This document shows positions 276 to 36,750 of a stretch of DNA of 36,750 nt, one piece after another. Below the pieces are notes generated by a model that saw nothing but the letters and a program-made list of their open reading frames with translations, did no database searches and was not told the DNA's origin. Position numbers and translations under genes: made by a program. The number at the start of each line of letters is the position of its first letter. Position 1 is the first letter of the stretch. The DNA comes from Deltaproteobacteria bacterium (lineage in GTDB: Bacteria; Desulfobacterota; Desulfarculia; Adiutricales; Adiutricaceae): assembly GCA_031269485.1 (NCBI GenBank), contig JAISZC010000079.1, positions 1-36,750 on the forward strand, given 5' to 3'.

Positions 276-3200
276 TCAAAAATCCAAGCTGAGCCTCACG
301 CCGCCTGAAAACCCGCGATTTTGGCCCAAGAAGCCTTGAAACCCGGCTTCCAGGGACCAGGGAACTTCCGGGCTGGGCTTGAGGCTCAAGCCGATCTCGG
401 CGAGGCCGGTGTCGCCTTTGAGCTCGTCAGATCCGAACTCCTGGCCGAGAGCTCGGCCGAGGCTTTCGCCGTCGAACTCCCGCTCCCAATAAAGTCCGCC
501 GTACCAAGACAGGCGAGAGTCGGCCTTGAAGCCAGTGTAGCGCGCGCCGGCCCTGACCCGCTGAGAGACGACCGGCGCGAAGGTCACCGTCTCGCCGGTG
601 GACAACGCGAACGATTCGCCATTTTGCCGCGTCCAGAAGTACCGCCCGACAAAATCCAGCGCGGCGAATTCGCCGAGACGCCTCGTCCAGCCAAGCCCGC
701 CATGAACGGAGAAGAAGGGCGTATTGGTTTTGTAATGCAGCGAATCGCCCGCTTCGTTGTCAAAATACACGCTTTCAAATTCGTTGACGAGGCGACCGAC
801 GCGGCCTGAGGCCTCAAATCTCAGACCGGCGGGCAAGCTCAGCCTAGTCAGGGCGCCCCAGGCGATGGAGCTCAGCTTGCCTTCGGCCTCGACCACGGGG
901 GCGCCCAAAGTGCCGTATCCGGATTCCAGATCGTATTTGCCGTAGGAGGCTTCCAAAAAGCCGCCAACAAGCAGATTGGCTCGAGTTAAATTCGTGTGAT
1001 AAACTGCGCCGGCCAGAGCGGTGACCGACTCGACGGTCACGTCTGAATTTCGGCCGGTCTCCAGCCACGCGCCGTCCAAGCCGAAGACGGGCAGCCACCA
1101 GCCTTGGGCCTCCCGCTCGCAGCCGCCGCAGGCGGCCAAGGCCAAGTCGGCCTGGAGGTAGCTGTGGTCGGCCAGCCAGGCGCCGGCGCGGCTCAAGAAA
1201 GCGGCGCCAATGGCCTGGCCTTCGGTCAAGATGCGGCTTTCAGGCAGCAGATAGGGCTCGTTTTCGAGATAGAGAACCAAATTTTTATTGGCTTCATCAA
1301 AAAAATTATCTTCAAAACCTACGGTATCGATATTAAAATTGTAGACTTTCAGCAAACCTTGTCTGGCGCTGACCGTGGCATTGGCTGGTTGGCCGACTAA
1401 TCGTCCCACGCCAACCGTATCTATTAAATAGTATATAGCGTCATCAGCTTGGACTTGAGCGTTGACATTAAGACTATCCAATAAAATAGTCATTCCTTCG
1501 ATATTAATTGGATTTGGTGTATCAATTATTAGTAATGCATCGTCATTTTTCGGTAAATTTTCTCTATGATATTGCGTTGTAGCATTATTATTAATATTAA
1601 ACCATATAGTGCCAGCTAAACTTGCTTCATTCACTTTAATTTGATTGTGTCCGTCTATATTGAGGCGTGCACCTTGTTCTAGTCTAAAATTATGACCTTT
1701 AGCCTCCAAAGTCATTCCTGAAAGCAATGATGTCCTACTACCGCTCTGAAATATAACTAAATTATCTGCCGGATTTTGAGTGCCTGTCAGACTAAAGATA
1801 TTTTTGCCACCCCATAGGAATTCTCCGCCATTGCCCAAGATATTCATTTTAAAATTTTTATTATTATTTTGATTGACATTAATTGGATCAAATAAACCAA
1901 TATATCCGCCTTTTCTGGCGTCTATTTCTAGTTCAGCGTCTGAATCGGCGTCATCTTGACTAACCAATGCCTTGGAATCTATAAAATCTATTTCTGGAAT
2001 AATTCCAAAATATAATGAATTCGTACGATGGACCCCATTTTCATATATATTATTATTTGAAAAAACTGTACTATTGCCATCATTAGCGATTAATATTACT
2101 TTTTGGATTGGATTCTCTGCATAATTATTCCCTGTATCTATAGTAATAACTCCATATACCTTTGGATCTAGGGGATAATTATTATTTTTATTTTCTTTAT
2201 CTTTATAAGCGCTATTATCTGTAATATCTGAATAAAAATTGTTATTAACAAACCAACTATCATTTATAGTTAACCCACCTTGGACGCCATAACTAAAAAC
2301 TAAACCACCCATGATTATGCCATTTTTTGCTCTTATAGTATTATTAGTAAATAAAGTATCTTCTATCGAACGTATCCCAGCAAATAATTGATTTCCACCA
2401 GTTACACCGATAATACCGCCACCATCTATATATAAATCTACAGTTATATTTGAATTTTGAAATATATTACCAGCACTACGCCACAAAAATGACATATCAT
2501 CTTGACCAGAGCTAGAATTTAAGCCTATAATTCCTCCTCCTTCAATATATTTTGCTCTAATTGTATTATTAGTAAATATACTATTATCAATACCTCCAAT
2601 AAATGACATTCCGCTTTCCGTATTAGCCCCAATTATGCCGCCGCCATATAGGCCATTAGCTGAAGTCACGGTGAGTTGATTGAAATAATTATTATCAAGA
2701 CTACTAATTAATTGCCCTGTTACATCATCTATATCAACTACTAACATGCCGCTCAAACCGTCCTTACTGTTATTGCCAATTATACCACCACCTTTTATTA
2801 AATCACTATTAACCATTATATTATTAAATTTATTATTCTTTATTGGGCCAATTACGGCTGCAGTACCTTGATTTAAGCTCTCAACTACAGCTACGCCGAT
2901 GACACCACCACCTTCAAGATTTTTATCAACATTTATTATAATATCCTCAAAATAATTATTATTAATTAGAGTAATCGACGAATCTTTATAAGAGCGTGTC
3001 CCTATTATTCCGCCACCAATCAGATGGCCAAGATTCATTGGAATAAGTGTATCAATATCAATTTTTATTTTTTTAAATATATTACTTTCTATCGTACCAA
3101 TTATTGACATATTAGCATTTGACCTGACCCCAATAATTCCTCCGCCCTCTATCACTGAACCTGTGGAAATATTTATGTTATAAAATATATTTTGTTTTAC

Positions 3201-3998
3201 TAAACCCAAATAAGTTGAAACATAATCTGACGCTGGATCAATTACAAAAGTTGATGCTTCTTCGGTGTCAAACTTTGGTGTAGAGTTGTCATATATACTT
3301 TTAAGATCTGCCTCATCAGAATTATTGGTTTGAAGACCTACTATGCCGCCACCTTTGATATAAGATGTTTCTGATGTAACATTTATTCCAGCAAAAATAT
3401 TATTTGTTAATTCATTCAAAACACTCATTGAATTATTAAGGCCATTAAGACCAATAATACCGCCACCACGTATAGCATGTAAAGCATTGATAGTAATATT
3501 ACCAGTTTCTCCATTCCCAAAAATATTATTTCTAGCTGTATTGAGTAATGAACAAGTTGTATTATCTGTACTTGTACAATCATATCCAGGAATTTGTATT
3601 GAAATTGGAATAAATTTACTATTATTGTTTAATCCAATAATACCGCCGCCTTGTATTATATCACTTGAATCAACAATTATATTAGTAAATAAATTACTAT
3701 CTAAATCACCCAAAAATGCCTTCCCCTGATAATTTGCTGAAGAGGTGGCCACGGCATCTAAGCCTATAATCCCACCACCTTCTATATATGGGCTCATATT
3801 ATGATTGGTTGAAATTTTATTATCTGTTTTGATACTAATTTTATCAAAATAATTACCAGTAATGGAACCTATTGTAACCGAACCTCTAGTCGATCTTAAA
3901 CCTATTATACCTCCACCCGCTAAATAATTTTTATCTGATCGTCCCAACATTTCAATATTAATATCATGAAAATAATTATCGCCTATTGATTTTTGCAC
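276..3998 (-). CDS. Autotransporter adhesin, passenger repeats plus C-terminal beta-barrel (downstream part of a frameshifted gene)
   Basis: This is the bulk of a type V secretion (autotransporter) protein; its signal peptide is in the overlapping frame at 3983-4522. The passenger (roughly residues 1-830) has about 13 imperfect repeats of 45-90 residues. Each ends in a GGGIIG(L/V) motif followed by N/S/T-rich stretches with N-x-(F/Y/I)-F motifs, as expected for a stacked beta-helix. The last 310 residues look like a classical autotransporter barrel: alternating hydrophobic strands, GWTRRLGEF and LAEIGLSLKP segments, and a terminal aromatic residue (SLDF). A CGGC pair sits just before the barrel. 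The barrel DNA is GC-rich (276 to about 1270) and the passenger DNA is strongly AT-rich (about 1270-4300). The GTG at 3998 is only a formal start. The real gene begins at 4522 and loses frame in a run of five A (sense strand) near 3990-3994; six A would restore it. It could be a sequencing error, a recent mutation or phase variation. Confidence 0.85.
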   Translation of the reverse strand: MQKSIGDNYFHDINIEMLGRSDKNYLAGGGIIGLRSTRGSVTIGSITGNYFDKISIKTDNKISTNHNMSPYIEGGGIIGLDAVATSSANYQGKAFLGDLDSNLFTNIIVDSSDIIQGGGIIGLNNNSKFIPISIQIPGYDCTSTDNTTCSLLNTARNNIFGNGETGNITINALHAIRGGGIIGLNGLNNSMSVLNELTNNIFAGINVTSETSYIKGGGIVGLQTNNSDEADLKSIYDNSTPKFDTEEASTFVIDPASDYVSTYLGLVKQNIFYNINISTGSVIEGGGIIGVRSNANMSIIGTIESNIFKKIKIDIDTLIPMNLGHLIGGGIIGTRSYKDSSITLINNNYFEDIIINVDKNLEGGGVIGVAVVESLNQGTAAVIGPIKNNKFNNIMVNSDLIKGGGIIGNNSKDGLSGMLVVDIDDVTGQLISSLDNNYFNQLTVTSANGLYGGGIIGANTESGMSFIGGIDNSIFTNNTIRAKYIEGGGIIGLNSSSGQDDMSFLWRSAGNIFQNSNITVDLYIDGGGIIGVTGGNQLFAGIRSIEDTLFTNNTIRAKNGIIMGGLVFSYGVQGGLTINDSWFVNNNFYSDITDNSAYKDKENKNNNYPLDPKVYGVITIDTGNNYAENPIQKVILIANDGNSTVFSNNNIYENGVHRTNSLYFGIIPEIDFIDSKALVSQDDADSDAELEIDARKGGYIGLFDPINVNQNNNKNFKMNILGNGGEFLWGGKNIFSLTGTQNPADNLVIFQSGSRTSLLSGMTLEAKGHNFRLEQGARLNIDGHNQIKVNEASLAGTIWFNINNNATTQYHRENLPKNDDALLIIDTPNPINIEGMTILLDSLNVNAQVQADDAIYYLIDTVGVGRLVGQPANATVSARQGLLKVYNFNIDTVGFEDNFFDEANKNLVLYLENEPYLLPESRILTEGQAIGAAFLSRAGAWLADHSYLQADLALAACGGCEREAQGWWLPVFGLDGAWLETGRNSDVTVESVTALAGAVYHTNLTRANLLVGGFLEASYGKYDLESGYGTLGAPVVEAEGKLSSIAWGALTRLSLPAGLRFEASGRVGRLVNEFESVYFDNEAGDSLHYKTNTPFFSVHGGLGWTRRLGEFAALDFVGRYFWTRQNGESFALSTGETVTFAPVVSQRVRAGARYTGFKADSRLSWYGGLYWEREFDGESLGRALGQEFGSDELKGDTGLAEIGLSLKPSPEVPWSLEAGFQGFLGQNRGFSGGVRLSLDF

Positions 3999-4522
3999 AA
4001 AATATTGCCGGACCCGTTTGTTGGTAATTCAAGCCATTTATACGTGTTTAAATTTGATGTTCCACTTATATTTCTAGTCAAATTATTTCCACTTAAATAG
4101 CTTAACGTCGGTAAATTATTATTAAAATTATTTACTGGATTTTTAATAATTGTTTCAATATTTATTCCTGCTATAGTTTCAATGCTTACCTGATCATATA
4201 TATTTAATGACAAATTTTTAATTTTATCCGTAAAATAACTTTCATTTTTTCCTCTAATTGTCAGATTTTGCTTATTTATTGTTATAACAATATTATTAAT
4301 ACCAAAATTAATGCCTGAAACATTGAATTCAATGAAACCGTTGGCCGACGTCTGCGACAGGGCGGCGTCCAGGCCGTCTCTGGTGGGGGCCGTCACTGGC
4401 GCGGCGCCAGCCGGAGCGGGCAAGCCCGACCAGACGGCCGCCGTCAAAAGCAGCCACAGCCCCAGGAGACCCGAGGCCGAATGCCCGACCGGGCGCAAAA
4501 CGCAGCTCGAACGAATCCGCAT
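3983..4522 (-). CDS. Autotransporter adhesin, signal peptide and first passenger segment (upstream part of the frameshifted gene)
   Basis: The start is the ATG at 4522, chosen because AGGAGGG (minus strand, 4535-4529) lies 6 bases before it; an upstream in-frame Met at 4570 has no such site. The product begins MRIRSSCVLRP, then a hydrophobic core (LLGLWLLLTAAVW) and an Ala/Pro-rich cleavage region (APAGAAP), a normal secretory signal. After about residue 60 the sequence turns N/I/K-rich (INFGINNIVITINKQNLTI), matching the passenger. The frame ends in LCKNQ-stop just where the frame of 276-3998 opens with SIGDNYFHDINIE. One extra A in the local A run gives LCKKSIGDNYF, so these two ORFs are one gene of about 1,415 codons. 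GC content falls sharply at about 4320, inside the coding region. Confidence 0.75.
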   Translation of the reverse strand: MRIRSSCVLRPVGHSASGLLGLWLLLTAAVWSGLPAPAGAAPVTAPTRDGLDAALSQTSANGFIEFNVSGINFGINNIVITINKQNLTIRGKNESYFTDKIKNLSLNIYDQVSIETIAGINIETIIKNPVNNFNNNLPTLSYLSGNNLTRNISGTSNLNTYKWLELPTNGSGNILCKNQ

Positions 4523-9566: not shown

Positions 9567-10110
9567 CAAGAAACATCCTGCGCCGTCAAGCGCTTGTCTG
9601 TCAGCGGCCGGACGCCTGACGCCCTGGACCGGACACCTGACGAAAGACGCGCTGCTCGTCGAATCAAAGATGACAAAAAACGACGCGCCGACCGGCTCCT
9701 CAGAATGATAGGCTCAGCAAGAGAGATTCAAGAAGAGAGGCTCAAGACGAGAGGCTCAAGAAGAGAGACTCAAGAAGAGAGACTCAAGAAGAGCCTTGCG
9801 CGTCGCCAAGCTAAAAAACGCCCGCCGGAGTTGACCGACCGACAGGCGGCCCAAGGAAAACCGATCCAGGCCGACAATTCGAGCCGGCTCGGCTTCGGCA
9901 AACCGCCGGCTCCGCCTTGCCCTCAGCTTCGGCTCAACTTCGTTTACGCGCTGGACAAGCGTCGCCCCGCCGCCGAAAGCCCGCTCTTTGGTCCGAGCCG
10001 CCGTAAAATTTCCTGTGCGCCCGCGGCTCCTCTCGCGACTTAAAGAGCCAAAAAAGCGGCGGACGGCCGCCTCCGACCACCGGCGGCGAACTTGCCGACT
10101 CCGAAGGCGA
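9567..10110. other. Gene-free stretch upstream of coaBC, with a 14-bp tandem repeat
   Basis: There is no convincing gene. The plus-strand ORF at 9594-10043 gives a charged, Arg/Lys/Pro-rich product crossing a tandem repeat, with no family resemblance. The region must contain the coaBC promoter, but no clear consensus was picked out. Confidence 0.5.
9719..9788 (+). repeat. Tandem repeat, five copies of a 14-bp unit
   Basis: Five successive copies of AAGAGAGNCTCAAG (9719-9732, 9733-9746, 9747-9760, 9761-9774, 9775-9788) differ at one to three positions. A partial sixth copy (AAGAG) follows. The unit length is not a multiple of three and the purine bias is strong. Confidence 0.9.
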
Positions 10111-23221: not shown

Positions 23222-23587
23222 ATGATTTTTAAAGATAAAGACGCCGTCAAGGCGACGATCGACAAAGCCAAAGGCGGAGTCGGCCAAATTTTTTCCAACA
23301 CTTTTTTGAACGACGCAAATCGTCCAGAGCGGACCAGAGCGGGCATGGTCGCCGTCAACACCTTGCCGCCCGGCGCGAGCCTGGGTTTTCACGTCCATGA
23401 GACCAACGAGGAAATATATTACTTCATCCAAGGCCAAGGCCTCTACACGGACGCCGACCGCCGGCAATATCCAATCGCCGCGGGCGATCTCACCTTGACG
23501 CGGCAAGGCGAAGGGCACGCTTTGGACAACGCTGGCGCCGAACCGCTGGTCTTTGCGGCCGTCATCATCGACGAAGGACGACCCTGA
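23222..23587 (+). CDS. Small cupin-domain protein
   Basis: The start ATG at 23222 follows AAGGAG by seven bases; an in-frame Met at 23195 lacks a site. The 121-residue product is a single cupin_2 barrel. The first metal motif is seen as GFHVHETNEEIYYFIQGQG (His, His, Glu pattern of G-x5-HxH-x3-4-E-x6-G), and the second as AAGDLTLTRQGEGHALDN with its His. Such proteins bind a metal and small ligands; the substrate is unknown. It is 361 bases before the alpha-2-macroglobulin gene and has no evident functional link with it. Confidence 0.88.
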   Translation: MIFKDKDAVKATIDKAKGGVGQIFSNTFLNDANRPERTRAGMVAVNTLPPGASLGFHVHETNEEIYYFIQGQGLYTDADRRQYPIAAGDLTLTRQGEGHALDNAGAEPLVFAAVIIDEGRP

Positions 23588-23948
23588 CCAGGACCGCGGC
23601 CGACCGCGCGACAACCGGACGCCGCCGATCGAACGGCCAACCGATCGAACGGCCAACGGAGGCGGCGGAGCGAAAGACAACTGGACGCCATGGCAGCCGC
23701 GCAAGCCAGAAACAACTTGTCGTCCGACAGACGTCGGGCCGACGGAGGTCCGGTCAAACGCGGCCCGGGCCCTGCCTCGACAGTTCGGCGCAGCCGCCGA
23801 ACGCGCTGAGCGGCGTGTTCGGCGGCCCTCGACGCGCCCGCCGGTCCGCCCGCGACGCTGGCCGCCTGGCTTGGCGCGTCGGGCGAGGCGGCCTCGCCAC
23901 CCAAACCAGACAATCAATAATATTACGCCATTTTATTTTGGAGTTTTT
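23588..23948. other. Spacer between cupin and alpha-2-macroglobulin genes
   Basis: The plus-strand frame of the macroglobulin gene is open through here from 23553, but the product is Arg/Pro/Thr-rich and lacks the signal peptide, so it is not taken as coding. It contains a perfect tandem 16-bp duplication, CCGATCGAACGGCCAA (23625-23640 and 23641-23656). The final 35 bases are AT-rich and may hold a promoter. Confidence 0.5.
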
Positions 23949-26900
23949 ATGACTTTAAATAAAATTTATTTAATGCTTTTTCTTGCCATGTTTTGGCTGG
24001 GCCTGCCGGCTTGCCAAGAGTCCGCGTCTACGGCCCCGTCGGCCGGCGACGCTCAAACGAGCTCTCAGTCGGCCGACGCCCCGCAGAAGAACAATTTGGC
24101 GGCCGCCTCCGCGCCTAGCCCGTCGGACGAGCTTTCAACCGCCGTCCAGTCGGCGCCGACGGCCGCGCCAGGCACGGGCCTCAAAATCCTCAACTTCCTG
24201 CCGGACGGCCAGGCGCAAAAGTTCAGCCAGCTGGTCGTCATGTTCAACCAGCCCATGGTCGCCTTGGGCGATTACGCCAATGTCGACCAAGACCTGATGA
24301 TCCTCGAGCCGCCTCTCCCAGGACGCCTCAGGTGGCTCAATCAATACGTCTTGGCTTTTTTGCCCGACAAGCCCCTGACCGGCAGCCTTGTTTTGAAGGC
24401 TCAGCTCAAAGCCGGCCTAAGAGCTCTTTCTGGCGACGTGCTGGAGGAAGGCAGCTCAGTTACGGTGACCCTGCCCTCCGTTGCCGTTAAAAACTCCTAT
24501 CTCTCCGGATCCATAACCGCCGAAACGCTAAAAAGACCGTTGTGGCTGATTTCCTTCAATCAAAAGATCAATCTAGATTCGCTCAAGGCCAAAAGTCGCT
24601 ACGTCTGCACGGATCAACAAGGTCAGAAAAGCGAAACGCCGGCCGAATTCCCGGCGGACGATGAAATTGATCGCCTAAACCAACGCTACGCTCAATTCGA
24701 TGTCCTGACGGCGCCCGTCCAAGATCTGCCCAGAGAAGCGGACTGCGCGCTCGTCATCGACGCCGGCCTGATCTCTCTCGACGGGCCGACGGCAACCTCG
24801 GAGGCGATCAAGGCTTTTTCTTTCCGTTCCCACGGCCCGCTGCTGGTCAGCCATCGCGGCCTAGAGGAGCGAGGCTCGCAGCTGGTGCTCGACCCGCCCG
24901 ACAGCTGGTTCTCCCTCAACTTTTCCAATCCTGTCGTTCTCGCCGAGCTTGTCGATCATCTCGAGTCCGAGCCGCCTCTGGCGGCGCTGACGGAGCTCAA
25001 GCGACGCCTGGAGGCGGAGCGGGCGGCTGAACGGCACGACGGCGCCGAAAAGAGCGGCGACGAGACCGAAGGGGCCGAAGGGTCCTATTCGGATGACAGC
25101 CACGAAAATTATTACGGCGCTTTCTCCGAGGCCAGAACTTCTATATCCTTCCACGAGCCCCTCCAAGGCGGGGCCGACTATCGGCTGACCTTGAAGCCCG
25201 GCTTGACCGACATTTTGGGCCAGAGCTTGGGCGAGGAAAAACGGCTGGTTTTTAGCGCCGCTCCTTACGCGCCCAGAGCCTGGCTTGATGACGGGCACGG
25301 CCTGTTCGAAACCGGAACCGCCCCCAAAACCGTGATCAAGACCGTCAATTTGCCGGAAATAAAGGTCTTGGGCTACGCCCTCGAACCGCGGCAGGCCATG
25401 GAACTGCTGCGGCTCAGCGGGGCCGATTTCGAATTCGGCAATTGGACGCCCAACGCCGTCGAGGTCCTCAAATTTCTCAAAAGTTCGGTTCAGCCCAAGA
25501 CCCTAATCCTCAAGCCGCCGAAGTCGTCCATGACCATGCCGACGACCCTGCCTCTGGATCTGGCCGAACTGTTCGGCCCGGATCTGATCGGCAAGTTTCT
25601 GGTGACGGTCCTGGAAAGCCAGGAAGCCTCCTTCACCATGCACCAAGTCTCCGATCTCGGTCTGACGGCCAAGATCGGCAGCGACAGCTCGACCGCCTGG
25701 GTCACTGATCTTTCAAGCGGGCGCGGCCTGGCCGGCGCCGAAGTGGAGCTTTTTTCGACCTCCGGTCGTTCGCTTTTCAAGACCGTCACTGGCGCCGACG
25801 GCTTGGCCCCCTTGCCCGGCGGGCTGGAGCTCAACGAGCTCGTCGCCGAATACGGCGGCCGGCCCCAAGAGGAGCTGGGCGACTCGTCCATGTCGTTAAA
25901 CGTCGTCGCCAGGGCCGCCGGCCAAATGACGCTGTGGAACGTCGCCTGGAACGACGGCTTTTCGCCTTGGCGAGTTGAGCTCGACGGCCAATGGCGTTGG
26001 CCTTTGGACGCAAGGCGCTCGGCGAGCTGGCTTTTGACGGCCCAGCCCATCTACAAGCCGGGCGAGACGCTGCGCCTGAAGATCATCAGTCGTCAGGAGA
26101 GCGGCGACGAGCTGGTCGATCTGCCGAGCAAGCGGGTCTCGGTCGTCTTGGCCGATCCCGATTATTCGATCATCGCCCAACGGACCGTCGACGTCAGCGC
26201 CTTCGGAACTTTTTCCTTCGATTACGAGTTGCCGTCCCAGGCCAAGACCGGCGACTACACGGTATATTTGGCCCCAGACCCCAACGTCGAGCTGGAGATC
26301 GCCGGACGCCTCGCCTACGAAATCGACGAGCTCGAATGGATCGGCTACCTCAGCGTCCAGCACTTCCGGGCGCCGGCCTTCGATCTGACCTTCCAAAAAC
26401 TTCCGGAAGCGGTCTACGACGGCCAGAAGGTCGCCGTCTCCGCGGAGGCCCGCTACCATTTCGGCGCCCCGGTGACCGAACAGCCGGGCGCCTACGAGGT
26501 AGGCGTCGTCTGGGCCAGCGGCTTCAGCTTGCCGGGCCTGGGAGGCTTCAGCGTCGTCAACGACCTGGCCAAGCTGGTCGACGGCGAGGAAGACGAGGAT
26601 TATTGGCCAGCCGCCCAAACGCTGGCTTCCGGCGCCGCCAAGCTCGACCGCGAGGGTCGGCTGACCTTCGAATTCGTCGCCGAGCCCGACCGCCGGCCCA
26701 AGCCGCGCCTGCTGTTGATCAACATCGGCGCCCAAGACGTGGACGGCCGCGAGATTCACCGCCGACAGGAGCTCCTCGTCCATCCGGCCGCCGTTTACCC
26801 GGCCCTCAAGCTCCGCTCCTTCCTCAACCGCAGCGGCCAGCCCATGGCGGTCGATCTGACCGCGGCCTCGCCAGACGGCCAACTGGTTCAAGCCGACGTC

Positions 26901-29900
26901 GAGCTGACCCTCTATCGCCGCTCCTGGAACACCGTCCGCCGCAAAGGTCCGGGCAGCGCCTTTCTTTACAGCTCCAAAGCCTCGGACCAAGAGATCCTCA
27001 AGCTGTCCCAGCCGGTGAACAAAGACGTGGCCCCCGTCGAGCTCACGCCCCCGGCCCCCGGCTTCTACTGGCTCAAGGCCGAGCTTAAAGACTCCGAGGG
27101 CCGGCGCAACGAGGCGGCCGTCTCCTTTTACGCCACCGGCGACGGCGCGGTGGGCTGGCGCTACTCGAACGACGAGCTCGTCGCCTTGGTGGCCGACAAG
27201 CCGGCATACGAGCCCGGCGACGTGGCCAAAATCCTGGTCCAAAGCCCCTTCGCCTCCGGCCAGGCCTTGGTGACGGTCGAACGGTCCGGCGTGCGCTCCT
27301 CCCAGGTCGTGGACGTCGTCGACCACAGCCCGGTCTTCGAGGTGCCCTTGACCGCCGCCGACGCCCCCAACGTCTTCGTTTCCGTCATTCTCAGCCGCGG
27401 CCGCATCGCCGAAAAGCCAGACGAAAACAACGTCGATCTTGGCAAGCCCGCCATCCGCAAAGGGTACGTCACGCTCAACGTCCCGCTCGATCTCGACGTC
27501 CTCAAAGTCGAGGTCAAGCCTCAAGCCCAGCAGTACCGCCCCGGCCAAGAGGCGGCCGTGGACTTTCAGGTCTTCGACCGCGACGGGACGACCCCTTTCG
27601 CGCAAGCCGAAGTCGCTCTGGTCGTGGTGGACGCCTCAGTCGTCCAAGTGGGCGGCGAAGACACCTATTTCCCTAACACCTTGTTTTCGCAGCTCCGACC
27701 CTTGGCCGTGCTGACGGCCAACCCCATCTCCGCGCTCGTCGGCCGCCGCAATTGGGCCGAAAAGGGCGCCTCGGAGGCCGGCGGCGGGGGCGAGCCGTTC
27801 GACAGCCAGGCGGCCTTGGCGCTGCGCTCCAATTTTAAAAATCTGGCCCATTTCGTCCCGGCCGCGGCCTTGGACGATCAGGGCCGCGGCTCGGCCTCCT
27901 TCAAGCTGCCCGACAACCTGACCACCTTCAAGATTTTCGCCGTGGCCACCGGCCACGGCCGGCGGTCCGGCACTGGCCAAGGCCAGCTGCTGGTCACGAA
28001 AGATCTCCTGCTGCGCAGTTCGCTCCCCGCTTACGCCGGCTTAGGCGACCGTTTCTTGGCCTCGGTCGTCGTCTCCAACCGCAGCCAAAACGCCGGCCGG
28101 GCCAAGGTGACCTTCAAGGCCCAAGGCCTGCGAAGCCTCGACGGACAACTGACGCGTGAAATCGAGCTATCGCCCGGCGAATCCAAAGAAGTCGGCTTTC
28201 CCGTCGCGGCCGAAACCTTGGGCCAGGCCGAAACGACCTATTGGGTCGAAATGGGCGACGAAACCGACCAAGTCCTCTGGCGCCTGCCCGTGCTACCCGT
28301 CAACCGCCAAACCTCCCAGGCCAGCTACCTCCAAATCGGCCCCGGCCTCTCCACGACGGTTTTGGCCCCGCCCGAAGGCCGAGATCCCAACCGAGGCGGC
28401 CTTTTCGTCGAGTTGTCGCCTTCCCTGGCCTCGACGCTGACCGCGTCCTTCGAGTGGCTGGCCAACTACCGCCACCAATGCGTGGAGCAGACGACCTCCA
28501 TGGCCTACTCCTCGCTTTTGTGGTTGCGGCTCAAGGACCGCTACCGTCCCGACCCCGAACGCGAGACGCGCAGCCGCGCCCAAGTCCAGCGGCACATCGC
28601 CTTCCTCCAATCCATCCAAACCAACGGCGGCTTTCCAATCTGGCCCGATTCCGACTCGTACAAACGACGTTTTTCGCCAACGGTCACGGCCTACGTCTTG
28701 GATTTTCTGCTGTCGGCTCGTCAAGACGGTTTTGAGATCGAACCCACGGCAATCACCTCTGCCACCAATTTTTTGTTGAACTTTTTGTCTAATCCCGAAG
28801 ACGAATTATTCCGGCACATCGACCAGCGTCCTTCGACATCTATTTACGTCAACTCCGTGCTGGCGAGGACCAATTACGTCCAAATCATCTATCTAGAACC
28901 GCACCTGGCCCAGGCGCACGCCCTGCCGACTGCCGATCTCCTCAATTTGACCTTGGCCGCGGCTTATTTGCCTAAATCCAACGCCAGAAGCCAAATGCTG
29001 TTGCAGCTTTTGCCTCTCGTCCTCAACCGCTTCGACGTGTCCGCCGGCCGGGTCAGAATCACCGGCGACAGAGCGCCGTGGCTGTGGCTCGACGAAGACA
29101 AGCTGACCGCCTTGGCTCTGCTGACATTGACCCAGGCCTCGCCTCACAACGAGCTTATGCCGGGCCTGGCCCGCGAGCTGGTCGACCGCACCAAGGGCGG
29201 CCATTTTTCCACCACGCAGTCCAACATTTACGGTCTTTTGGCCCTGTCGGCCTATCTGGAATTGACCGAACCGGAAAACCCAACCTTGGAGGCCTCCGTC
29301 CGCTTGAGCGCCCCGGAGGACGGCGACCAAGCCGGCGCTCGACCAAAAACCGCCTCCAACGGACCAGCGACCGAGCGCGAAATAATCTCGGCCTCCTTCA
29401 AATCCTTCCGGGACCGAGCGGTGTCCTTTGAGCTGCCCATGACCGAACTCGACGGCGCGGACGCCGTCAATTTCGACCTCGCCGGCCAGGGGCAGCTTTG
29501 GGCTTCGATTCGCCTCGCCTCGGCCCCCCTCGAACCCGACTTGACGCCGGAAATCTCGACGTCGCTGATGCTCTCACGCTCCTACGCCGTAGTGCGGCCG
29601 ACCGAAGAAAAGCCAGGTCGCGTCATTTTCAGCCGAGGTCAGGTGGTGCGCGTCACCGTCACCATGATGAACGCCGAAGACCGGCGCAACCTGGTTTTGG
29701 AGGATCGGGTGCCGGCCGGCTTTGAGACCGTCAACTTCACTTTGCTCGACCAAGACCAAACCCTGATTCCTCTGACCGACCAGGACGACGACTGGGACTT
29801 CCCCCGCAACAACTGGTACCAACGCCAGGAGTTTAGGCCTGAAAGCGTGGCCGTCTACGCCGATTTCGTCCCGGCGGGCGTTTACACCCTCTCCTATCTG

Positions 29901-30065
29901 GTCCGCCCGGTCACGCCCGGCCGCTATCCGACGCCCGGCCCCCAGGCCGAGGAAATGTACGCGCCGGAAACCTTCGGGCGCGGCGCCGGCCAGGTGCTGA
30001 CGGTCGACTCCGACCACAATTGGAGCGACGCCGACCAGTCCGTCCGCGAAGCGGAACAAGACTGA
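23949..30065 (+). CDS. Bacterial alpha-2-macroglobulin-like lipoprotein with thioester
   Basis: This is a large envelope protein of 2038 residues, expected to trap attacking proteases covalently in the periplasm. The start ATG at 23949 follows TTGGAG by five bases and opens a lipoprotein signal (YLMLFLAMFWLGLPAC, Cys22 then Gln-Glu). An Ala/Ser/Gln spacer leads to macroglobulin-type domains: an MG-like strand set with GLTAKIGSDSSTAWVTDLSSG (about 570), YKPGETLRLK (about 700) and YEPGDVAKILVQSPF (about 1087). The A2M domain includes FVPAAALDDQGRGSASFKLP (about 1300). The thioester motif CVEQ is at Cys1511-Gln1514 (RHQCVEQTTS), followed by a helical thioester domain. The end has MYAPETFGRGAGQVLTV, as in YfhM-type proteins. 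The usual partner gene for penicillin-binding protein 1C is not adjacent; a strong terminator follows. His-Gln precedes the Cys where Tyr/Phe-Gly is common. Confidence 0.94.
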   Translation: MTLNKIYLMLFLAMFWLGLPACQESASTAPSAGDAQTSSQSADAPQKNNLAAASAPSPSDELSTAVQSAPTAAPGTGLKILNFLPDGQAQKFSQLVVMFNQPMVALGDYANVDQDLMILEPPLPGRLRWLNQYVLAFLPDKPLTGSLVLKAQLKAGLRALSGDVLEEGSSVTVTLPSVAVKNSYLSGSITAETLKRPLWLISFNQKINLDSLKAKSRYVCTDQQGQKSETPAEFPADDEIDRLNQRYAQFDVLTAPVQDLPREADCALVIDAGLISLDGPTATSEAIKAFSFRSHGPLLVSHRGLEERGSQLVLDPPDSWFSLNFSNPVVLAELVDHLESEPPLAALTELKRRLEAERAAERHDGAEKSGDETEGAEGSYSDDSHENYYGAFSEARTSISFHEPLQGGADYRLTLKPGLTDILGQSLGEEKRLVFSAAPYAPRAWLDDGHGLFETGTAPKTVIKTVNLPEIKVLGYALEPRQAMELLRLSGADFEFGNWTPNAVEVLKFLKSSVQPKTLILKPPKSSMTMPTTLPLDLAELFGPDLIGKFLVTVLESQEASFTMHQVSDLGLTAKIGSDSSTAWVTDLSSGRGLAGAEVELFSTSGRSLFKTVTGADGLAPLPGGLELNELVAEYGGRPQEELGDSSMSLNVVARAAGQMTLWNVAWNDGFSPWRVELDGQWRWPLDARRSASWLLTAQPIYKPGETLRLKIISRQESGDELVDLPSKRVSVVLADPDYSIIAQRTVDVSAFGTFSFDYELPSQAKTGDYTVYLAPDPNVELEIAGRLAYEIDELEWIGYLSVQHFRAPAFDLTFQKLPEAVYDGQKVAVSAEARYHFGAPVTEQPGAYEVGVVWASGFSLPGLGGFSVVNDLAKLVDGEEDEDYWPAAQTLASGAAKLDREGRLTFEFVAEPDRRPKPRLLLINIGAQDVDGREIHRRQELLVHPAAVYPALKLRSFLNRSGQPMAVDLTAASPDGQLVQADVELTLYRRSWNTVRRKGPGSAFLYSSKASDQEILKLSQPVNKDVAPVELTPPAPGFYWLKAELKDSEGRRNEAAVSFYATGDGAVGWRYSNDELVALVADKPAYEPGDVAKILVQSPFASGQALVTVERSGVRSSQVVDVVDHSPVFEVPLTAADAPNVFVSVILSRGRIAEKPDENNVDLGKPAIRKGYVTLNVPLDLDVLKVEVKPQAQQYRPGQEAAVDFQVFDRDGTTPFAQAEVALVVVDASVVQVGGEDTYFPNTLFSQLRPLAVLTANPISALVGRRNWAEKGASEAGGGGEPFDSQAALALRSNFKNLAHFVPAAALDDQGRGSASFKLPDNLTTFKIFAVATGHGRRSGTGQGQLLVTKDLLLRSSLPAYAGLGDRFLASVVVSNRSQNAGRAKVTFKAQGLRSLDGQLTREIELSPGESKEVGFPVAAETLGQAETTYWVEMGDETDQVLWRLPVLPVNRQTSQASYLQIGPGLSTTVLAPPEGRDPNRGGLFVELSPSLASTLTASFEWLANYRHQCVEQTTSMAYSSLLWLRLKDRYRPDPERETRSRAQVQRHIAFLQSIQTNGGFPIWPDSDSYKRRFSPTVTAYVLDFLLSARQDGFEIEPTAITSATNFLLNFLSNPEDELFRHIDQRPSTSIYVNSVLARTNYVQIIYLEPHLAQAHALPTADLLNLTLAAAYLPKSNARSQMLLQLLPLVLNRFDVSAGRVRITGDRAPWLWLDEDKLTALALLTLTQASPHNELMPGLARELVDRTKGGHFSTTQSNIYGLLALSAYLELTEPENPTLEASVRLSAPEDGDQAGARPKTASNGPATEREIISASFKSFRDRAVSFELPMTELDGADAVNFDLAGQGQLWASIRLASAPLEPDLTPEISTSLMLSRSYAVVRPTEEKPGRVIFSRGQVVRVTVTMMNAEDRRNLVLEDRVPAGFETVNFTLLDQDQTLIPLTDQDDDWDFPRNNWYQRQEFRPESVAVYADFVPAGVYTLSYLVRPVTPGRYPTPGPQAEEMYAPETFGRGAGQVLTVDSDHNWSDADQSVREAEQD

Positions 30066-31151: not shown

Positions 31152-32819
31152 TCAATCCAAGTCGCCCAAAACGGCCCCCGTGTTGGCCGACGTCACCTGC
31201 CGGCGATAACGGCTCAGGCAGCCGCGCGTCACCGGCTTGACCTTGGGCCGCCAAGCGGCCCGACGGCGCTCGATGACCTCCGGCGGCACCAGCAGTTCCA
31301 GGCGGTTGTTGGGGATGTCTACGGCTATCTCGTCATTTTCCTCAATTAGGCCGATCAGTCCGCCGGCGGCGGCTTCCGGAGAAATGTGGCCGATGGAAGC
31401 CCCCTTGGAGGCCCCGGAAAAACGCCCGTCGGTGATCAGCGCCACGCTGGAGTCCAAGCCCAGCCCGGCCAACGTGGCCGTCGGCGTGAGCATTTCCCGC
31501 ATGCCCGGCCCGCCTTTGGGTCCCTCGTAGCGCACGACCACCACGTCGCCCGGCTTGACGCGTCCGGCCAAGAGGGCTTCCGTGCAGTCCTCCTCTTGGT
31601 CGAAAACCCTTGCCGGCCCGCGATGAGTCATCATTTCCGGCAGCACGGCCCCTTTCTTGACCACCGCCCCGTCCGGCGCCAAATTGCCCCACAGCACCGC
31701 CAAGCCGCCGTCCGCCGAATGGGCCCGCTCCAGGGTCCTGATCACATCGTCGTCGTAAACGGCCGCCGACCGCAAATTCTCTCCCAACGTCCGGCCCGTG
31801 ACCGTGAGACACTCGAGGTCCAGCAGCCCCAGCTCGGCCAAGCGCTTGAGCACGCCCTGAACGCCACCGGCCTGGTCGAGGTCGGCCAAGACGTCGGGCC
31901 CGGCCGGGCTAAGCTTGACCAAATGCGGGGTCGCCTTGCTCACGCCGTTGATGTCCTCCAATGACAGCTCCAAGCCCGCCTCATGAGCGATGGCCAACAA
32001 ATGCAAAACCGTGTTAGACGAGCAGCCCAAGGCCATGTCCGCGGCCAAGGCGTTGCGCAGGCTTTGCGCCGTCACGATGTCGCGGGGCCGCACGTTTTGA
32101 GCCAGCAGGCGCATCACTTGGCCGCCGGCTTGCTTGGCCAACCTGATTCGCCCGGCGTGGACGGCCGGAATGGTGCCATGCCCCGGCAGTCCCAAGCCGA
32201 TCGCCTCGGTCATGCAGTTCATGGAATTAGCCGTGAACATGCCAGCGCACGACCCGCAGCCGGGACACGACTCGTCCTCGATGAACTTGACCTCCTCGTC
32301 GTCGAGCCGGCCCAACGACGCCAAGCCCACGGCCTCGAAAGCCGACGACACCGTCAGCTTGCGGCCGCGCTTCCAGCTGGGCATCATCGGACCGCCGCTG
32401 ACGAACACCGACGGCAAGTTGAGCCTTATGGCGGCCATGATCATGCCCGGCACTATCTTGTCGCAGTTGGGCACGAAGACCAAGGCGTCGAAAGGATGCG
32501 CCATGGCCATTATTTCCACTGAATCGGCGATATGCTCCCGGCTGACCAAAGAAAACTTCATGCCCTCATGTCCCATGGCCAGGCCGTCGCAGACGCCGAT
32601 GGACGGAAAGGCCAGCGGCGTCCCGCCGGCGGCGGAGACCGCCGACTTGACCGCGTCGGTCACGTTGTCGAGGTGGACATGTCCCGGTATGACGTCGTTT
32701 TTGGCGTTGACGACGCCGATTATTGGTCTAGCCACTTCTTCGTCCGTCAAACCCATGGCCTTCAATAACGACCGGTGCGGTATCCTGGTCAAACCTTTTT
32801 TCATCAAGTCGCTGCGCAT
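31152..32819 (-). CDS. ilvD: Dihydroxy-acid dehydratase
   Basis: It dehydrates dihydroxy-acids to 2-oxo acids in valine, leucine and isoleucine synthesis using an Fe-S cluster. [11 protein letters not shown] (Cys119) and [18 protein letters not shown] (Cys185-191) carry the cluster ligands. [25 protein letters not shown] is the C-terminal signature (split as [10 protein letters not shown], then GHISPEAA). The third-ligand region reads IPGHVHL, the form found in oxygen-sensitive enzymes rather than the PC form of [2Fe-2S] types. The ATG at 32819 follows AGAGGAGA. It is 555 residues, a normal length. An aminotransferase gene lies 99 bases upstream in the same direction and may be co-transcribed. 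Confidence 0.96.
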
Positions 32820-32918: not shown

Positions 32919-34136
32919 TCAACTAGACTTATCTCCCCGGCCGCTTTGGCCTCGTCGGAGGGCCTCTGCCATGGCTTTTTCGAAACCGCCCAAGGAACGA
33001 GCGATCTTATCCTCGCTGAGGCACAGGCTGAGCCTAAAATAGCCACGCCGGGCAAAACCTGTCCCCGGCACGGCCAAAATCAGCTCTTTTTTCAAAAGCT
33101 CCACGAAGGCCACATCGTCGGCCAGCGGGCTTTTGGGAAAAAGATAAAAAGTCCCCTGCGGCTTGACCACCTCGTAGCCCAGCTTGGTCAAGGCCGACCC
33201 CAGCGACTCCACGCGCCGCGCATATTCGCCGACGTCCACGCTCTCGTCCACCAGTTCGGCCGCCGCCCTCTGCATCAAGGCTGGCGCGTTGACGAAGCCC
33301 AAAATCCGGTTGGCCAAAGCCGCCGCCGCCGCGAATTCCTCCGCTTGCGGAAAATTCGGATTGACGCACAGGTAGCCGAGGCGCTCGCCGGGTATGGACA
33401 GATCTTTGGAAAACGAGCTGACCGCCACCGTGGCCGGATAGGCGGCCAAGGCAGACGGCGCGGACGTCCCCCCGTAGACCAGCCTGCGGTACGGCTCGTC
33501 CGAGATCAGCGCGATCGGTCTCCCGTGGATACGGGATTTTTCGGAAAGCGCCTCCGCCAAGCCTTGCAGTTCTTGGTCGGTGTAGACCGCGCCCGTAGGG
33601 TTGTTGGGCGAATTGATGATTACGGCTCTGACGTCTGGCGTGAGAGTCTCGGCCAAGGCGACGGGGTCGGGCCTGAAGCTCGCGTCGGTCTCGGCCACGA
33701 TCGTTTGACCGCCATGATTTTCAACGTAAAATTTATATTCCATGAAAAATGGCGCCAGGACGACCGCCTTGTCGCCCGGGTCCAAGATGGTCTTCAATGC
33801 CACGTTCAAGGCCCCGGCCGCGCCCACGGTCATGACGATCAGCTCCGGACGAACCTCTACGCCGATGGCCTTTTGAAGGCTTTCGGCGAGCTTGGCCCGA
33901 ACGCCGGTCAGACCCGCGTTGGGCATGTAGGCGTGCGCGCCTGGCGGGTCCTCGTCAATCAAAGCAGTTAAAGTTTTTTTCAAGGCGGCCGGCGGCGGCA
34001 AATCTGGATTGCCCAGCGAGTAGTCGAAAACCTTCTCCTCGCCATGCAAGGCCTTGAGCCTCAAGCCCTCCTCAAACATTTTTCGTACCATCGAGCCGTT
34101 CTTGACGGCCGTCTTCATTTTCTCGCTGACCGGCAT
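32919..34136 (-). CDS. Class I/II pyridoxal-phosphate aminotransferase
   Basis: This is a fold-type I aminotransferase of 405 residues resembling aspartate, methionine or branched-chain-type enzymes. It has INSPNNPTG (174-182), Asp213 and Tyr216 (ISDEPYRRLVYGG), the Schiff-base Lys244 in SSFSKDLSIPGERLGY with Arg252, and the C-terminal substrate-carboxylate Arg in GYFRLSLC. The ATG at 34136 follows AGGGGGAA. It is upstream of ilvD with a 99-base gap, so a role in branched-chain amino acid metabolism is possible, but the specificity cannot be read from motifs. Confidence 0.92.
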   Translation of the reverse strand: MPVSEKMKTAVKNGSMVRKMFEEGLRLKALHGEEKVFDYSLGNPDLPPPAALKKTLTALIDEDPPGAHAYMPNAGLTGVRAKLAESLQKAIGVEVRPELIVMTVGAAGALNVALKTILDPGDKAVVLAPFFMEYKFYVENHGGQTIVAETDASFRPDPVALAETLTPDVRAVIINSPNNPTGAVYTDQELQGLAEALSEKSRIHGRPIALISDEPYRRLVYGGTSAPSALAAYPATVAVSSFSKDLSIPGERLGYLCVNPNFPQAEEFAAAAALANRILGFVNAPALMQRAAAELVDESVDVGEYARRVESLGSALTKLGYEVVKPQGTFYLFPKSPLADDVAFVELLKKELILAVPGTGFARRGYFRLSLCLSEDKIARSLGGFEKAMAEALRRGQSGRGDKSS

Positions 34137-34515
34137 GCTTGGTTTCCCCCTGACAGGCTGTCGCGCGGCCGCCTAACCGACGGATGCACCGACCTATGTC
34201 CGAAACCGCTTCCGTCCCAATCAACAGCTGGCCAGACCTAGGCGGGACAGCGCCAGACGAGCCCTTCGACGGCGTTCAATTCTCGCCTCCCTCAGGCGTC
34301 GCCCCTCAGCCAGACCGACAACTTCAGACGCGCCACTCGCCCTCCCGCCAAGAACCGCCGCGAACCCTAGGCAAGGCCTGGAGGCGCCACCAAAAACATT
34401 CAGCTGCAGACAACCGAACTCCGGACCAGTTGGCTCGGAGTTTGACTCGTAAGAGCAATTTAAAACCAAATTTACTTTTCATTCGTAAATATTCCATTAA
34501 CATCGTTTAGTAATT
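34137..34515. other. Gene-free stretch upstream of the aminotransferase
   Basis: GC-rich to about 34440, then AT-rich. Short ORFs on both strands (34184-34510 plus, 34221-34469 minus) overlap and look like chance frames. The aminotransferase promoter should be here; none stands out. Confidence 0.45.
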
Positions 34516-34760
34516 CTAGTTTGGTTTTTTCGCACGTTTGGTGAATATTTCCTCCTTAATTAGCTTTACATCAGACTTATTCACCAAATTGTTGAGCTCT
34601 ACACCGAAACAGTAGCGTTTTGTAGTGCAGTTTCGCACAAAAAATTTGCCTTCATCTTTTATTTTTAAACAATGATGTTTAATTTGTCCTATTTTATTTA
34701 TGTTTTAATACAATTTTATCTTCGTAACAATCAATATTCTCCATACCATTAAACTCGATT
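34516..34760 (-). pseudogene. Relic of an unidentified AT-rich gene (C-terminal part)
   Basis: Minus-strand frame 34704-34516 is open for 62 codons with coding-like sequence: IKHHCLKIKDEGKFF, RNCTTKRYCFGVELNNLV, KLIKEEIFTKRAKKPN then stop. Just upstream another frame reads ENIDCYEDKIVLKHK then stop, and joins sensibly after a frameshift. There is no start codon, so it is a decayed or truncated 3-prime end. I do not recognise the family. The composition matches the other AT-rich islands. Confidence 0.45.
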
Positions 34761-35439
34761 CAACCTCTTTTTTTTACTTTTAATAATTATTAGCTCGATA
34801 AACATAAAACGCACCGTCCTTCCCTAATTCTATTTTTCAGCCGGCGTGGCGTGGGGTGGGGCCGAGGTTGGGCGGACTTGTTCCAGCTTAACGAAGGTTC
34901 CCTCGGCCAGCTTTTGACGGCGCTGAAACGAGAGTTGGTTTGTCGCATGACCAATGTTTAACGTCCTGTCAGGCAATGTTCAGGATTCAGGCAATGTTCA
35001 GGATTTTTGCGATTGACTCCATTGTACCAAATTTTGACGGCGCTTGTCAGTTAAGAGGCGCGTTGCGGTCAATAGGCTACATGGCATTCAGTCGGTCCAG
35101 CCTGATAATTGAGGCGGCGCTTGTCTCATTGCTGAAATGATGACGCATAACCAGGCATTTGTCAAGTGCTCCACATGCGAACGGTTCCTCCAAGACGCTC
35201 AGCGTATTTCCGCATATTCATCATGAGACCTTAGACTCTCTTCTTTGGAACTGGCCTTTGCCTATTCGAGTCCAACTTGCTTGGCCTCAGAGCCAACCCC
35301 TTTTCTCCACCTTTCCAGTTGAACAATTATGATTTATATAGGTGGCTTCTCCGCGAGGCCGTTAGCAAGCCTCTGCAAGACCATTGTCCGTCGGGTCGCC
35401 AGTTCCTTGCTCCCTGCAGTTACGTCATGGATTACCTTA
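34761..35439. other. Left flank of the satellite array, non-coding
   Basis: No gene is supported; short ORFs (34940-35140, 35277-35471) have no coding character. It has a tandem 18-bp duplication, CAGGCAATGTTCAGGATT (34970-34987, 34988-35005). Words such as GACGGCGCT(T/G) recur near 34917 and 35037. It may be the most degenerate part of the repeat array that follows. Confidence 0.45.
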
Positions 35440-36750
35440 CGCTATGGTTTTTCCACCTGGAAAAACCATGAACTCTATGCCTTGCCTTAATTTCTTCTCA
35501 AATTGGCTAGATGCAACCCCACCTGATTAAACTGCCAGTTGACTCTACAGTTGCTGTTCCTCGATTTAATGCCTTCCTCGTGGAAAGCCTCAGAAGGCCT
35601 ATACGATCGTCGAGACATTGTTGGTTGTTTGCCGGCCGAGTCGGTTAAGAGGCTAGCGCAATAGACCTCAATCAGGAACCGCTTTGGCTTTCCACGTTGA
35701 AAAACTGGCTAGAGAACTTATTGGTTTTCTGGCCTGGTAAACGCCGGTTGTCTGCTAGATTGATTTCGTCAGAGCGGCCGAACTGACTGCCTCGCTGGTC
35801 CGAAAACCCGGTCATGAAACTGACCTTTGAACCATCCACGTGGAATTTTCAAGCAACCCTCTCGACTGTTTGGCCGGCGCCTGTTTTCAGCGGGACCAAA
35901 ATCAAGCATCAAACTGACCGCTGGGACTTTCCACGTGGAAAGTCCCCCGTAACCTATTTGACGTCTAGCCCGTCCCCATTTGCAGCTGACAGTTTGGCCG
36001 TCCCTGGCGGAGGCGATTGTACCGAGGGACCAAAATCAAGCAAAGAACTGACCGCTTGAACTTTCCACGGGGAAAGTGTTCGTAAAACCTGCCTGCCCTC
36101 TTGACTCCTTTTTTGTCAATTGTCCGCAAATCATTCCCTGTTGAGTTGACTGCTCAGCGGCCCCGAAAACTTACAAGTGACCGCCGCTGGGACTTTCCAC
36201 GTGGAAAGTCCCCCTTAACCTATTTGGCGTCTAGCCCGAGCCCATTTGCCGGCTGACAGCTTGACCGCTCCTGGCAGAGGAGGTTTCGCCGCGGGACCAA
36301 AATCAAGCAAGGAACTGACCGCTTGAACTTTCCACGGGGAAAGTGTTCGTAAAACCTGCCTGCCCTCTTGCCAGACTCCATTTTTGTCAATTGTCGCAAA
36401 TCATTCCCTGCTGAGTTGACTGCTCAGCGGCCCCAAAAACCTGACAAGGGACCGCCGCTGAAACTTTCCACGTGGAAAGTCCCCCGTAACCTATTTGGTG
36501 TCTAGCCTGAGCCCATTTGCCAGCTGACAGCTTGGCCGTTCCTGGCAGAGGAGATTTTACCGAGGGACCAAAATCAAGCAAGGAACTGACCGCTTGAACT
36601 TTCCACGGGGAAAGTGTTCGTAAAACTGCCTGCCCTCTTGCCAGACTCCATTTTTGTCAATTGTCCGCAAATCATTCCCTGCTGAGTTGACTGCTCAGCG
36701 GCCCCAAAAACCTGACAAGGGACCGCCGCTGAAACTTTCCACGTGGAAAG
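35440..36750. repeat. Palindrome-centred satellite array, 135-bp monomers in 270-bp A/B dimers (continues past the right edge)
   Basis: A palindrome related to ACTTTCCACGTGGAAAGT occurs at centres 35456, 35579, 35695, 35839, 35934, 36068, 36200, 36335, 36471, 36606 and 36742. The last seven are 132-136 bases apart. Type A (35934, 36200, 36471, 36742) has the perfect CACGTG centre; the first two extend to a 24-bp perfect palindrome (35923-35946, 36189-36212). Type B (36068, 36335, 36606) has CACGGG. A and B monomers share GACCGC(Y)TGAAC before the palindrome, CGTAA(AA)CCT after it and a CCAAAA(A/T)C block, but otherwise differ. Neighbouring A-to-A copies are near-identical over 266-271 bases. 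The first four centres are irregular and degenerate. No frame is kept, so it is non-coding DNA or structured RNA. Confidence 0.9.

Follow-up and report, generated by a model that had tools for sequence, protein, structure and literature searches.

The right-hand end of the window (the whole stretch of 36,750 nucleotides analysed here, which is one whole contig, G000:C200, of an Adiutricaceae metagenome-assembled genome, MAG) carries a tandem array that we believe, with a probability of about 0.88, to be a chromosomal parS centromere, predicted to bind ParB and built as satellite-like tandem repeats. Its recurring element is a 16-bp palindrome, CTTTCCACG[T/G]GGAAAG, of which there are seven intact copies; with four decayed copies on the left, the array holds eleven parS-like palindromes (Table 1).

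The intact palindromes are separated by 134, 132, 135, 136, 135 and 136 bp and alternate between an A type, the perfect CTTTCCACGTGGAAAG with a CACGTG core, and a B type, CTTTCCACGGGGAAAG, which has CACGGG and one mismatch. These coordinates bear out the first-pass annotation, which had described seven palindromes 132–136 bp apart that alternate between the two cores. That annotation had also begun the array at 35440, a position explained by the four decayed sites (35449, 35572, 35688 and 35832), which extend the array leftwards with spacings of 123, 116, 144 and 95 bp. The exact form TTTCCACG[GT]GGAAA was observed seven times, against a mean of 0.0 in 2000 Markov simulations, and all nine sites detected at ≤ 1 mismatch throughout the 2.59-Mb MAG fall within the array. 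A genome-wide search of the same MAG for canonical parS at ≤ 1 mismatch found none. The window motif, CTTTCCACGKGGAAAG, differs from consensus parS at position 1 (G to T) and position 4 (T to C). The A sites have the character of parS, being palindromes of 14–16 bp with a CACGTG core that resemble TGTTTCACGTGAAACA, while the B sites are imperfect; as with parS, the sites are concentrated in one region of the chromosome.

Table 1. Features at the right-hand end of the window (positions 1 to 36,750) and units of the tandem palindrome arrays at the same locus in relatives.
Feature	Position in window	Strand	Unit	Remarks
Dihydroxy-acid dehydratase (ilvD-type)	31152..32819	minus		
Aminotransferase class I/II	32919..34136	minus		syntenic anchor
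Spacer without convincing genes	34137..35448	.		45–51% GC; between aminotransferase and array; sole listed ORF 108 aa
Decayed parS-like palindrome	35449..35464	.		TTTTCCACCTGGAAAA; left edge of array
Decayed palindrome	35572..35587	.		CCTTCCTCGTGGAAAG
Decayed palindrome	35688..35703	.		CTTTCCACGTTGAAAA
Decayed palindrome	35832..35847	.		CCATCCACGTGGAATT
Homogeneous satellite part	35918..36750	.	AB dimer, 266–271 bp	3.1 copies; TRF and identity matrix
parS-like site A1	35927..35942	.		perfect CTTTCCACGTGGAAAG, within GGGACTTTCCACGTGGAAAGTCCC
parS-like site B1	36061..36076	.		CTTTCCACGGGGAAAG, one mismatch
parS-like site A2	36193..36208	.		perfect
parS-like site B2	36328..36343	.		
parS-like site A3	36464..36479	.		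perfect
parS-like site B3	36599..36614	.		
parS-like site A4	36735..36750	.		last base is the contig end
G000 array (window)			135 bp	
G001 array			58 bp	reaches contig end
G005 array			43 bp	23 sites; reaches contig end
G006 array			about 48 bp	
G011 array			106 bp	more than 20 sites
G013 array			about 94 bp	dimeric alternation
G019 array			40 bp	reaches contig end
G032 array			47 bp	reaches contig end

Over the homogeneous part of the array, TRF reported a period of 271 (92% matches, score 1414) and a period of 135 too, and the self-shift of the region was strongest at 271. Identities between centred monomers were 0.74–0.90 for A–A, 0.87–0.96 for B–B and 0.57–0.67 for A–B pairs. The homogeneous unit is therefore the AB dimer, in agreement with the earlier description of a dimer of about 270 bp composed of two diverged monomers. 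The same higher-order arrangement is evident when neighbouring and next-but-one monomers are compared, identity at lag 2 exceeding that at lag 1 both in the window (0.74 versus 0.58) and in the relative G013 (0.69 versus 0.58). The array had also been said to reach the right edge of the window, and the contig indeed ends on the last base of A4. Because the final 85 bp recur exactly 271 bp upstream, assembly stopped inside the repeat, and the copy number is at least that seen. A search of the contigs of this MAG for a continuation of the array at another contig end found none. The array region has a GC content of about 0.52, compared with 0.58 for the rest of the window, a reduction that is common to the locus in relatives; it contains no long ORF, the longest stop-free stretch being 90 aa.

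Conserved blocks around each palindrome had been taken in the first-pass annotation as a sign of selection for a protein-binding site or an RNA structure. Those in the window mostly reflect recent copying, whereas selection is indicated for the columns of the palindrome itself. Mean column identity of the palindrome and of the rest was, respectively, 0.84 and 0.51 in the window, 0.91 and 0.72 in G005, 0.96 and 0.68 in G011, and 0.89 and 0.54 in G013, for sites chosen by motif match, a bias that favours the palindrome; in G005 and the intact part of the window array, the copies follow without gaps at the period, so that few sites can have been missed. The palindrome is thus far better conserved than the spacers, decayed copies included. 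The idea of a protein-binding palindrome is supported by these results; that of an RNA structure is not, since a search of the array region against Rfam gave no match and the arrays of relatives share the palindrome and not the spacers.

The array lies upstream of the aminotransferase gene, the start codon of which is ∼1.3 kb from the nearest decayed site. In G011 too, an ORF of about the size of the ilvD-type gene follows the aminotransferase. Neighbouring genes in the window have core roles in metabolism and replication (ssb, carbamoyltransferase, dihydroorotase-like and ilvD), which places the array on chromosomal DNA. Nothing points to a plasmid: core chromosomal genes are on the contig, the array DNA had no matches among plasmids and phages, and the parAB genes of another family member, G026, are on a 4.48-Mb contig. 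Two array patterns likewise had no matches among viral contigs. Elsewhere in the window we observed a 1240-aa ORF (276–3998) with no Pfam match that is mostly AT-rich (31% GC from 2001 to 4000), further AT-rich stretches at 5–6 kb and 16–18 kb, a 14-bp tandem repeat, AAGAGAGACTCAAG (9702–9793, 5.4 copies), adjoining or within overlapping ORFs, and a 2170-aa ORF (23553–30065).

When compared with 60 related genomes, the array DNA matched itself alone, because spacers are not retained from one genus to another; the locus was traced through gene synteny and not through searches with the array sequence. Of 37 family genomes, 23 contain an orthologue of the aminotransferase. In all four relatives in which the locus is spanned (G006:C112, G009:C23, G011:C53 and G013:C6), parB lies 4–8 kb from the aminotransferase gene and is divergent from it, and parS-like palindromes sit between the two. 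The order in G006 is aminotransferase, array, two small ORFs, parA (PF13614), parB (ParB_N and HTH_ParB) and a glycosyltransferase, with parA adjoining parB. From the orientation in these relatives, parAB would be expected to the right of the window array, past the contig end; proximity to parAB is thus seen by synteny in the four relatives, the window contig itself ending within the array. The G013 locus has two different ParB genes in tandem (L074, G013:C6:86436–88189), each sharing about 50% identity with the ParB of G006, which represent either a duplication or a Noc-like second protein. G003 and G020 have no array upstream of the aminotransferase, and in G002, G025 and G029 the 394–677 bp that remains upstream is too short for the presence of an array to be judged. 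Synteny is lost in genus g5, in which parS sites are few and dispersed and there is no array (G026); in the near-complete G026 genome, the aminotransferase is 1.8 Mb from parAB, where three dispersed parS sites are found. Hence not all members of the family are in the satellite state.

Tandem palindrome arrays occupy the locus in eight genomes belonging to four genera (G000, G001, G005, G006, G011, G013, G019 and G032), with monomers of 40–136 bp, and two or three palindromes are present there in G009, G015 and G021. The motif itself varies, being TGTTTCACGTGAAACA in genus g6, TGTGCCACGTGGCACA in G011, TGTTTGACGTCAAACA in G006, TGTCAGACGTCTGACA in G032, AGTTCCACGTGGAACT-like in g10, and CTTTCCACGKGGAAAG in the window. 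Genome-wide searches in three genomes found the motif confined to its own array (22/22 sites in G011, 5/5 in G006 and 9/9 in the window genome), and a genome-wide search of G006 gave no canonical parS at ≤ 1 mismatch. BLAST comparison between arrays revealed similarity within genus g6 only, the best-scoring pieces being anchored on the shared palindrome. We conclude that monomers have been replaced, even inside genera g2 and g7, while the palindrome was kept. Perfect and imperfect sites also alternate in G013 (TGTTTCACGTGAAACA/TGTTTCACGTGGAACA); as a speculation, such alternation may provide graded loading.

An orthologous ParB was not found in the window's MAG, which gave no ParB_N match and one weak, unrelated match (E 4.6e-6). 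This MAG is 75.7% complete and, as noted, its contig ends in the array. Among genomes outside g5 that have the aminotransferase, the orthologous ParB is absent from 10/10 in which the contig ends ≤ ∼3.2 kb upstream and present in 4/4 in which it is unbroken (Fisher P 0.001, from a table entered by hand that omits G003 and G020, which have longer upstream sequence and no array there). The simplest reading is that the parAB contig was lost through an assembly break at the array. Such a break at a centromere suggests why parAB may be absent from many metagenome bins of this kind. The argument that a contig break upstream of the aminotransferase proves an array is weakened because g5 genomes break there too, while the near-complete G026, which lacks an array, has its aminotransferase far from parAB.

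A neutral tandem repeat, in which slippage or unequal exchange amplified DNA that chanced to hold a palindrome without any binding function, would also have homogenised spacers and decayed edge copies, as these fit any satellite, and would account for spacers that are unrelated between relatives outside genus g6. We nevertheless consider it very improbable, since the independent arrays of eight genomes share one locus beside parAB and are all centred on parS-like palindromes, and since the palindrome outlasts the spacers even in decayed copies. There is still less to recommend an assembly artefact or chimaera, whether from collapsed reads or from a bacterial contig fused to foreign satellite DNA, which we regard as improbable in the extreme. 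The contig does end inside the repeat, and the GC content of the region departs from that of its surroundings, but the copies differ among themselves and so do not represent one collapsed read, the reduced GC recurs at the locus in relatives, and relatives assembled independently have that type of palindrome at that locus, four of them with assemblies that span into parAB.

Palindromic sites upstream of a metabolic gene pair might also be operators at which a transcription factor regulates the aminotransferase–ilvD genes, the nearest decayed site being at the distance from the start codon given above. More than seven sites over 1.3 kb would be excessive for this purpose, however, and the G026 aminotransferase, away from parAB, is without such an upstream array, while the parS sites remain with parAB. 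The motifs, moreover, match parS and are found beside ParB genes of other phyla as well, which together leave operators highly improbable. If the sites instead nucleated another protein of the ParB family, either Noc-like or a duplicate of ParB, and not the segregation ParB, the tandem ParB genes at the G013 locus would be accounted for, as would the B palindrome, CCACGGGG, which goes one step in the direction of the Noc site (TTTCCCGGGAAA). G006, G009 and G011 have a single ParB gene beside the array, however, and Noc has been described as confined to Firmicutes (PMC7383237), so that we rate a second ParB as quite improbable.

The ParBs of the family contain the CTP-binding motifs NPDQPRK, G[EHQY]RR and EN..R..LNP.E, and match structures that we take to be those of Caulobacter, Thermus and Myxococcus ParB; residues are numbered here by alignment with the Caulobacter chain. 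R173, which hydrogen-bonds to G1 of parS, and G201 were reported in 2020 to be absolutely conserved in extant ParB orthologues (PMC7383237). In the family, residue 173 is S in G009 and T in G016, and residue 201 is S in G006, which has GACGTC sites, and A in G024; residue 178 is G in G011 and G024, and residue 204 is L in G006 and G024.

A scan of 84,980 species genomes identified ten loci with pairs of TTTCCACGKGGAAA about 135 bp apart. Six of these have a ParB gene 0.8–1.1 kb off and belong to Omnitrophota or, for two loci, probably to Elusimicrobiota, one of the latter being labelled just 'uncultured bacterium'. Clusters of GTTTCCACGTGGAAAC lie 0.8–1.1 kb from K173 ParB genes at L019, L021, L023, L024, L025 and L026 (Omnitrophota and probable Elusimicrobiota). 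Outside the family, K173 is present in 6/6 ParBs beside the inner 14-mer, TTTCCACGTGGAAA, as opposed to 0/17 ParBs of the window's class, the K173 set having been found via the motif and therefore not being an unbiased sample. Canonical ParBs have Arg at 173 (PMC7383237). Loci that combine GTTTCCACGTGGAAAC with K173 apparently constitute a distinct parS/ParB specificity class. The window array has the same inner 14-mer as the K173 loci, with T and not G as base 1, which would agree with a lost R173 contact. Because the inner 14-mer is shared, we predict that the absent ParB of the window genome has a residue other than Arg at 173, probably Lys. Two Kiritimatiellae loci (L018:7300–7910 and L022:2311–2924) have six GTTTCCACGTGGAAAC sites within 0.6 kb and no ParB gene in the 8-kb stretch, and a Roseivivax locus (L020:5715–5864) has two GAGTTTCCACGTGGAAACTC sites 136 bp apart with similar flanks and no ParB gene in 8 kb.

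The first-pass annotation knew of no named bacterial element with this architecture. This is only half right: the palindrome resembles the ParB site parS, its locus is that of parAB in relatives, and closely packed parS sites on a chromosome (Myxococcus) as well as plasmid centromeres of tandem repeats (F sopC) have been described. The sopC centromere of plasmid F has 12 copies, each with an inverted repeat. Like it, the arrays of the window and its relatives consist of short units in tandem that each contain a single inverted repeat of ParB type, and the G005 unit is of the same length as the 43-bp sopC repeat (cited in PMC9499535). They differ in that sopC is on a plasmid and has one fixed sequence, whereas the family arrays are chromosomal, with units of 40–136 bp and dimeric higher-order units. 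In Myxococcus xanthus, a 3-kb cluster that lies about 4 kb upstream of parA holds 22 parS sites (PMC3899335), which amounts to about one site per 140 bp in the same position relative to parAB as the window array; from that paper's description, these are clustered canonical sites (gTTCCACGTGGAAc) and not a homogenised higher-order satellite. The canonical ParABS systems of Bacillus and Caulobacter (PMC7333895) share with the family a CACGTG-core palindrome near parAB and a ParB with CTPase and HTH domains, but their sites usually number one to a few, are scattered and share a conserved sequence, in contrast to dense arrays whose motifs have diverged in related genera.

On the basis of ParABS biology, in which ParB clamps are loaded, slide and condense DNA and the complex is moved by ParA (PMC7333895), we propose that each palindrome would nucleate one dimer of the cognate ParB CTPase. 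With the sites so clustered, many ParB clamps would be loaded and would slide into flanking DNA to form a partition complex; ParA would move this complex, so that sister chromosomes are drawn apart, and SMC may load at the array, which would lie just upstream of a parA–parB pair to the right of the contig end. Slippage or unequal exchange may have spread the satellite monomers, with homogenisation of the interior as the AB dimer and decay of the copies at the edge. DNA between sites would be free to turn over, while selection for ParB binding would keep the palindrome. Since clustering would raise loading and tolerate the loss of single sites, slippage or unequal exchange could expand, homogenise and replace monomers.

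The eukaryotic alpha satellite, with its CENP-B box, likewise has monomers in tandem, higher-order repeats and decayed edges, with a short protein-binding box that is conserved while the monomers turn over fast. The likeness of the family arrays to it is one of analogy only, with no homology and no common proteins, and the arrays measure kilobases or run off the contig end. We give even odds to the proposal that the centromere of this family evolves like a eukaryotic one, its satellite monomers being replaced in full both between genera and inside them, its array length perhaps varying by unequal exchange, and its parS having switched several times together with the ParB residues that contact DNA (173, 178, 201 and 204). 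A literature search that covered few subscription papers turned up no account of a chromosomal centromere built as a satellite, with higher-order repeats and with turnover of monomer and motif alike, or of a comparable change of parS within one family. Chromosomal parS is held to be among the most conserved DNA sites in bacteria. Here a single family has several parS sequences, and ParBs that break both the R173 and the G201 rules, in satellite-like arrays. It would thus offer a natural series in which to follow the joint change of a DNA-binding protein and its essential site, and would bring the 'centromere paradox' of fast-changing DNA with conserved function into a bacterial setting where copy number and sequence can be engineered.
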